Assembly: GCA_028870115.1 (NCBI GenBank)
Contig: JAGWQH010000024.1
Location: 1-47,501 of the forward strand
Origin: Candidatus Methylomirabilota bacterium
GTDB taxonomy: Bacteria; Methylomirabilota; Methylomirabilia; Methylomirabilales; Methylomirabilaceae
DNA: 47,501 bases
Direction of reading: 5' to 3'
Part shown: piece after piece, positions 43,119 to 43,723 of the stretch
Position numbering within the stretch: the stretch's first letter is position 1
How the letters are laid out: each line of letters starts with the position of its first letter
Program-made: the position numbers and the translations under genes
The notes under the pieces: generated by a model
Seen by the model: only the letters and a program-made list of their open reading frames with translations
Databases searched by the model: none
Told to the model about the DNA's origin: nothing

Positions 43119-43161
43119 GTCGGAAGGGGTCTGGTGACTAAAAGACAGAATGGAGAGAGCG

Positions 43162-43527
43162 ATGGCGAGATTACTGATCACCGCGACTTACGGGTATGAC
43201 AACTCTACGCGGGCGACGATGCCGTTCTTTGTGGCGAAGGGCGCGAAGGAGTCTGGCATCGACGTCGGCATTGTGTTGGCGCTCGATGCCACGGTTCTGA
43301 TCAAGTCGGAGTTGCGGCAGCACGTCAAGCCCTACGGACTCCCGCCGCTCGACGAACTGTTCCAGTTCGCCGTGGACCATCAGATCCCGATTTACCTCTG
43401 AGGGGGGTGAGCCCAGACCCGTGGGGTCTTGGATGAAGACCTCAAGCGTGTGTCGGTCGTTCAGAAGATCGATATCAAACGGTACGCCCAACTGCTGGTA
43501 GAGTACGACCGATCGGTTACTTACTAA
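43162..43527 (+). CDS. DsrE-family protein, candidate double-selenocysteine (UxxU) selenoprotein
   Basis: The first 79 codons give a clear DsrE/F-like protein (MARLLITATYGYDNSTRATM, VGIVLALDATVLI, FQFAVDHQIPIYL). In the family a CxxC or similar cysteine site follows directly. Here the codons are TGA-GGG-GGG-TGA (43399-43410). The same frame then continues as AQTRGVLDEDLKRVSVVQKI, DIKRYAQLLVEYDRSVTY and a TAA at 43525-43527: the expected C-terminal half, with no other stop. Read-through gives 121 residues with Sec at 80 and 83. Downstream hairpins fit bacterial SECIS rules. GGAGAG precedes ATG 43162; ATG 43150 is an alternative. If the TGAs are real stops this is a pseudogene with a 79-residue product. 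Selenocysteine machinery is not in the window. Confidence 0.7.
43412..43443 (+). promoter_or_regulatory. Two overlapping SECIS-like hairpins
   Basis: Hairpin 1: AGACCC (43415-43420) pairs with GGGTCT (43424-43429), extendable by CC/GG across one mismatch, with loop GTG. Its loop begins 19 nt after the first TGA. Hairpin 2: GGGGTCTT (43423-43430) pairs with AAGACCTC (43436-43443), with loop GGATG; its loop begins 20 nt after the second TGA. The two share the GGGTCT strand and so are mutually exclusive. Bacterial SECIS elements are small hairpins with a G early in the apical loop, roughly 16-37 nt after the UGA; both fit. Confidence 0.6.
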
Positions 43528-43548
43528 TGCAAACGCAGAAAGTCATGT

Positions 43549-43629
43549 GTCATCGCGAGGGAGCGAAGCGATCGAAGCGATCTCACGCACGGCGAGATTG
43601 CCACGCTCCTTTCAGTCGCTCGCAATGAC
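43549..43629. repeat. Palindromic interspersed repeat (MITE/REP-like)
   Basis: GTCATCGCGAG (43549-43559) is the near-complement of CTCGCAATGAC (43619-43629), and inner arms GCGATCTC/GAGATTGC continue the pairing. This 'GTCATTGCGAG...' family of imperfect palindromes recurs in intergenic regions of many bacteria. It separates the DsrE gene from the quinone oxidoreductase. Confidence 0.75.
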
Positions 43630-43723
43630 GATGTAACAGGAGTTAGTGTGTGTATGAGGTGTGACTTGTGTCGGTGGGTGGCTTGCTTCGGAGAAGCGAC
43701 ACACGTAGGACAGGAGGTAGCGT

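Follow-up and report, generated by a model that had tools for sequence, protein, structure and literature searches.

The DsrE-family gene and its reading frame

Within the window, i.e. the whole stretch of 47,501 nucleotides of Candidatus Methylomirabilota DNA that has been analysed, a gene of the DsrE family that is predicted to encode a selenoprotein is located at positions 43162..43527 (+). From the ATG at 43162, its frame runs through 79 residues ending in ...IPIYL, reaches the codons TGA GGG GGG TGA at 43399-43410, and continues for 38 sense codons (AQTRGVLDEDLK...SVTY) to a TAA at 43525-43527; the 121 codons in all would yield a protein of 121 residues with selenocysteine (Sec) at positions 80 and 83, an assignment that draws on the frame, the profile match, the orthologues and an AlphaFold2 model. 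A likely ribosome binding site, TGGAGAG at 43151..43157 (+), lies ahead of this ATG, with GGAG found there in most orthologues; we take 43162 rather than the in-frame ATG at 43150 as the start, since it is 43162 that GGAG precedes in the orthologues, and the upstream ATG is unconserved. Under translation table 11, the locus holds only an ORF of 83 residues, which starts at the upstream ATG. The preliminary description of this locus had traced the same frame up to PIYL, across the two TGA codons and on to the TAA, and had foreseen its truncation; both points are borne out, the first by the sequence and the profile match, and the second by the fragment of 79-83 residues that ordinary annotation would yield, on which the gene would be mistaken for a truncated one.

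Two further features accompany the gene. An antisense ORF of 106 residues, open at 43171-43491 (-), overlaps it and recurs in several relatives; gene callers might pick this ORF over the DsrE gene. Directly downstream, at 43540-43640, lies a repeat (TCATCGCGAGGGAGCGAAGCGATCGAAGCGATCTC...GAGATTGCCACGCTCC...CGCTCGCAATGACGATG) with 37 full or partial matches across its own genome, and we therefore regard it as a dispersed intergenic element, either REP-like or a small mobile one. When the window was scanned for further TGA-interrupted genes, no convincing second case emerged.

The read-through protein is matched by PF02635 (DsrE) across both TGA codons, over residues 4-120, with an E-value of 3.6e-13 and a score of 50.1 bits against a curated cut-off of 22.7 (35.2 bits in the genome search); no other DsrE-family match has been found in its own genome, where the window gene is the only one. 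The AlphaFold2 model (mean pLDDT 93.6, pTM 0.88) finds its best fold matches with Foldseek in YchN (1JX7, E 5.7e-7), DsrE of DsrEFH (2HY5, 4.3e-6) and TusD (2D1P, 2.1e-5), and it also matches DsrF of DsrEFH. YchN, DsrE and TusD share the fold of the window protein at 16-19% identity, but have cysteine where the window protein would have Sec: U80 and U83 align with both cysteines of the YchN motif CKTC. By its motif, U80 is predicted to occupy the position of DsrE/TusD Cys78, the established site that binds sulfane sulfur (PMC3397948), and it also falls on the active-site cysteine column in a weak match to the TusD profile.

The protein differs from these systems in several respects. It scores 14.7 bits against the TusD/DsrE sulfurtransferase subunit equivalog TIGR03012, below the cut-off of 89.25, and, unlike DsrE of DsrEFH, its gene has no dsrF/dsrH-type neighbours. 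YedF, a SirA-DsrE fusion that has been linked to selenium metabolism, carries the motif CGxC in its DsrE domain (PMC5322559); the YedF model TIGR03527 gives no match to the window protein, which consists of a DsrE domain of 121 residues, without a SirA domain.

The two TGA codons among relatives

Our survey set comprises 95 genomes of the phylum, 17 of which, the window's own genome included, contain a close orthologue (Methylomirabilis and Rokubacteria). The codons predicted to specify U80, at 43399..43401 (+), and U83, at 43408..43410 (+), are TGA in 17/17 of these genomes, with the other close orthologues being 69-94% identical to the window protein; the double-TGA gene is present in a single-contig genome of 2,752,854 bases (G005), and in one genome (G001) the orthologue is split across two contigs (L030, L077). 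The same 17 genomes and one more (G027, with L038) have been recovered by searching with a DNA pattern, while the reversed control pattern has given zero matches. Two distant relatives from the same order, L038 (38% identical) and L060 (35%), also have two TGA codons. The motif of L060 (G017:C25:1137-1493) is UTGU, followed by an 8-bp hairpin at another position, and its second Sec is possibly an independent gain.

The sequence beyond the two codons is under constraint as well. Calculated over the 15 full-length orthologues, pN/pS is 0.16 for the part that precedes the first TGA and 0.22 for the part that follows the TGA codons, the corresponding values within the genus being 0.07 and 0.17; purifying selection acts on the sequence past the second TGA.

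In all relatives that we have compared, the two motif columns are occupied exclusively by cysteine or TGA. Most of the other relatives have one TGA and read UGRC, UGKC, UGAC, UTAC, UTPC or UDTC, whereas those without Sec read CSPC, CKPC, CGAC or CTPC. The first TGA thus recurs at the same column in most one-Sec relatives, while the column of the second TGA holds cysteine in UxxC and CxxC relatives (TGC or TGT in the former); cysteine is the common state at this second position, as L033-L045 show. Several additional one-Sec DsrE paralogues with varied motifs occur in Rokubacteria and their relatives (L033-L045, L062, L063, L070-L076); in one case (L075, G057), a UxxU and a UxxC gene are located 2 kb apart on one contig.

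The machinery for Sec insertion is complete in the genome of the window: tRNA-Sec (selC; C97, 65.9 bits, above the cut-off), SelB (C73, 385.8), SelA (C96, 596.2) and SelD (C66, 395.8). SelD (L047, G000:C66:1534-2460) is a selenoprotein itself, with a TGA in the motif GAGUACK and strong hairpins past its UGA, one of which carries GUC as its apical loop, about 33 nt downstream. selA is found in 18 of the 19 genomes that carry a double-TGA gene, and its absence from the matches in the remaining one (G058, a 250-contig assembly) is possibly an assembly gap; since selA occurs in 83/95 genomes of the phylum overall, this co-occurrence is consistent with Sec insertion, but not very informative.

Hairpins downstream of the TGA codons

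According to the published model of the bacterial SECIS element, the hairpin has a loop of 3-9 nt, a stem of 4-16 bp, a G in the first two loop positions, a UGA-to-loop distance of 16-37 nt and an energy of -7.5 kcal/mol or lower (PMC13188914). No Rfam family matches the region at E<=1, and our assignment of SECIS elements therefore rests on these published rules and on our own counts. Counting from the first base of the first UGA (UGA1, 43399) as position 1, two hairpins are found downstream of the second (UGA2).

Hairpin H1, AGACCC-GUG-GGGUCU, is located at 43415..43429 (+), with its apical loop at 43421-43423; positions 17-22 pair with 26-31 around the loop 23-25, and the loop lies 19 nt past UGA1 and 10 nt past UGA2, so that H1 can serve UGA1 only, the latter distance being below the limit of 16 nt. 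H1 meets the SECIS rules in UxxC relatives, and also in L029 and L032; the window sequence retains its pairs, but the lone stem is not listed there below the energy limit. Together with the first UGA, H1 is common to the window gene and to the UxxC relatives, and it is the rule-meeting hairpin in most of those tested, with the exceptions of L059 and L072, which have none. Its pairing is supported by covariation, both among the UxxC sequences (score 0.171, against a shuffled mean of 0.071) and across the UxxU and UxxC groups together (0.302 against 0.140); none of the 500 shuffles has reached the observed score in either case, and the signal is lost when the pairing partners are slid.

Hairpin H2, UGGGGUCUU-GGAUG-AAGACCUCA, is located at 43422..43444 (+), with its apical loop at 43431-43435; positions 24-32 pair with 38-46 around the loop 33-37, forming 9 bp at -11.9 kcal/mol. 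H2 satisfies every published SECIS rule for both codons, at 29 nt from UGA1 and 20 nt from UGA2, and it is the only hairpin of the two at a legal distance from UGA2. A hairpin that is legal for the second codon occurs in both UxxU lineages and in 0 of the UxxC sequences tested. Part of the H2 pairing is also present in some UxxC relatives.

The energy of H2 is modest evidence by itself, because a hairpin that is legal for both UGA codons also appears in about 10% of synonymous reshufflings of the window sequence. A further signal comes from codon usage: among 61 degenerate codons with a constant amino acid, five are represented by one codon in 15/15 sequences, and these five (codons 88, 89, 90, 93 and 94) are all located within H2. 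The placement of 5/5 invariant codons on the six such codons of the stretch 88-94 corresponds to p ~1e-6 if positions are exchangeable, a value that is optimistic given the relatedness of the sequences. Covariation of H2 has not been seen among the UxxU sequences, where H2 is nearly invariant.

A probable double-selenocysteine DsrE protein

We consider it very probable (about 0.94) that the locus encodes a DsrE-fold selenoprotein of 121 residues with the motif U80-G-G-U83, both UGA codons being read as Sec by SelB and tRNA-Sec under the direction of the downstream hairpins. H1 would have been inherited from UxxC ancestors and would be fixed on UGA1, while H2, at a legal distance from both codons, would direct Sec insertion at UGA2. 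The preliminary description had proposed a UxxU selenoprotein candidate; this proposal has gained support from the double TGA in 17/17 genomes, from homologue columns that hold cysteine or Sec and nothing else, from a Sec machinery with all four of selA, selB, selC and selD, and from the hairpins that follow the SECIS rules, Sec insertion at both codons being inferred from these comparisons.

It had also been argued that two stops at the positions of a CxxC pair are hardly a product of decay. A decayed gene or a sequencing error would turn the TGA codons into mutational or assembly mistakes and leave a dead fragment of 79 residues, much like the short ORF that ordinary annotation would return; against this, TGA stands at exactly these two codons in each of 17 separate genomes, with the rest of the gene intact, which excludes chance and assembly error, and purifying selection extends past them, so that the earlier argument holds and the probability of decay or error is close to negligible. 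The frame would be equally open if TGA were read as another amino acid, through a code with Trp or Gly or through plain readthrough of the stop, but the complete Sec machinery and the columns, which hold cysteine or Sec and never Trp or Gly, speak against it. Moreover, TGA ends the gene upstream and terminates this same ORF in 5/15 full-length orthologues; it is therefore still a stop and no general sense codon, and a reading as another amino acid is very improbable. A recoded genome has been rejected, as TGA terminates other genes, and the DsrE gene itself in relatives.

Sec insertion in bacteria is often inefficient, and H1 is placed for UGA1 alone; it is thus conceivable that only UGA1 is decoded as Sec and that UGA2 acts mostly as a stop or is read inefficiently, with a one-Sec form of 82 residues as the main product. 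We regard this as unlikely, though slightly less so than a different amino acid at the TGA codons: the 38 codons past UGA2 are conserved, UGA2 is invariant although cysteine could be reached by one change, and in both UxxU lineages H2 follows the SECIS rules for UGA2, whereas such a hairpin is missing from the UxxC sequences tested. The insertion of Sec at both codons remains our preferred reading.

Since the strand GGGGUCUU (43423-43430) belongs to both H1 and H2, the two hairpins are mutually exclusive and cannot coexist, which has led us to the idea of a toggling SECIS, with H1 serving UGA1 and H2 serving UGA2. In H1 the shared strand would pair with the upstream arm AGACCC, and in H2 with the downstream arm AAGACCUC; by its advance of nine bases, from UGA1 to UGA2, the ribosome would open H1 and release the strand to form H2, so that SelB would meet a hairpin in almost the same register at the second Sec codon. 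We put this forward as a speculative arrangement that is rather unlikely to hold as described. In the distant UxxU relatives L038 and L060, the downstream hairpin is located elsewhere, which suggests a separate solution.

With respect to function, the window protein may be pictured as a small protein of the cytoplasm with a redox or sulfur/selenium-relay role, where U80 would act as the nucleophile, by taking up a chalcogen atom or attacking a disulfide, and U83 would resolve it via a diselenide; we propose such a role tentatively, at somewhat less than even odds. The genomic context suggests no substrate: within the genus, the gene is followed by a zinc-type dehydrogenase/quinone reductase, a glucose/sorbosone-dehydrogenase-like protein and MlaA, and in several members is preceded by a PD-(D/E)XK protein and RNase E/G, but this context is not kept around the Rokubacteria copies, for which no shared neighbouring gene family has been found, and the gene therefore appears to travel alone.

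The DsrE-like selenoproteins described from 2005 onwards are UxxC proteins with one Sec (PMC1088965, PMC2398784, PMC9312934, PMC13188914), in agreement with the preliminary description, which had counted a DsrE-like family among the known selenoproteins; those from the Sargasso Sea, the Global Ocean Sampling families and Desulfovibrio belong to the same Pfam family, PF02635, as the window protein, which would differ from them by having Sec at both positions. UxxU, with two Sec spaced as in CxxC, has been listed for Prx-like thiol:disulfide oxidoreductases, for putative mercuric reductase/metal-binding proteins and for FmdB, not for DsrE (PMC13188914, PMC9312934, PMC2398784), and the folds of these proteins are unrelated to that of DsrE. 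NCBIfam has no model for a UxxU DsrE, and our literature search, which did not cover Deng et al. 2026, has found no DsrE protein with UxxU; that study, as cited in PMC13188914, reports a Methylomirabilota MAG from groundwater with 63 predicted selenoproteins, a set that may include this gene. What is new here is thus a well-supported, sequence-based candidate for a variant with two Sec residues within a selenoprotein family that is already known.

A family that is listed elsewhere as single-Sec would thereby gain a double-Sec member that is phylum-wide and strongly conserved, and Methylomirabilis, a methane oxidiser of wide interest, would have a selenoprotein as the sole DsrE-family protein of the genome examined here. 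The gene would lend itself as a natural test case for the way in which a single mRNA directs two Sec insertions at a distance of nine bases, and its product would offer a naturally occurring diselenide motif to redox or chalcogen-transfer chemistry.
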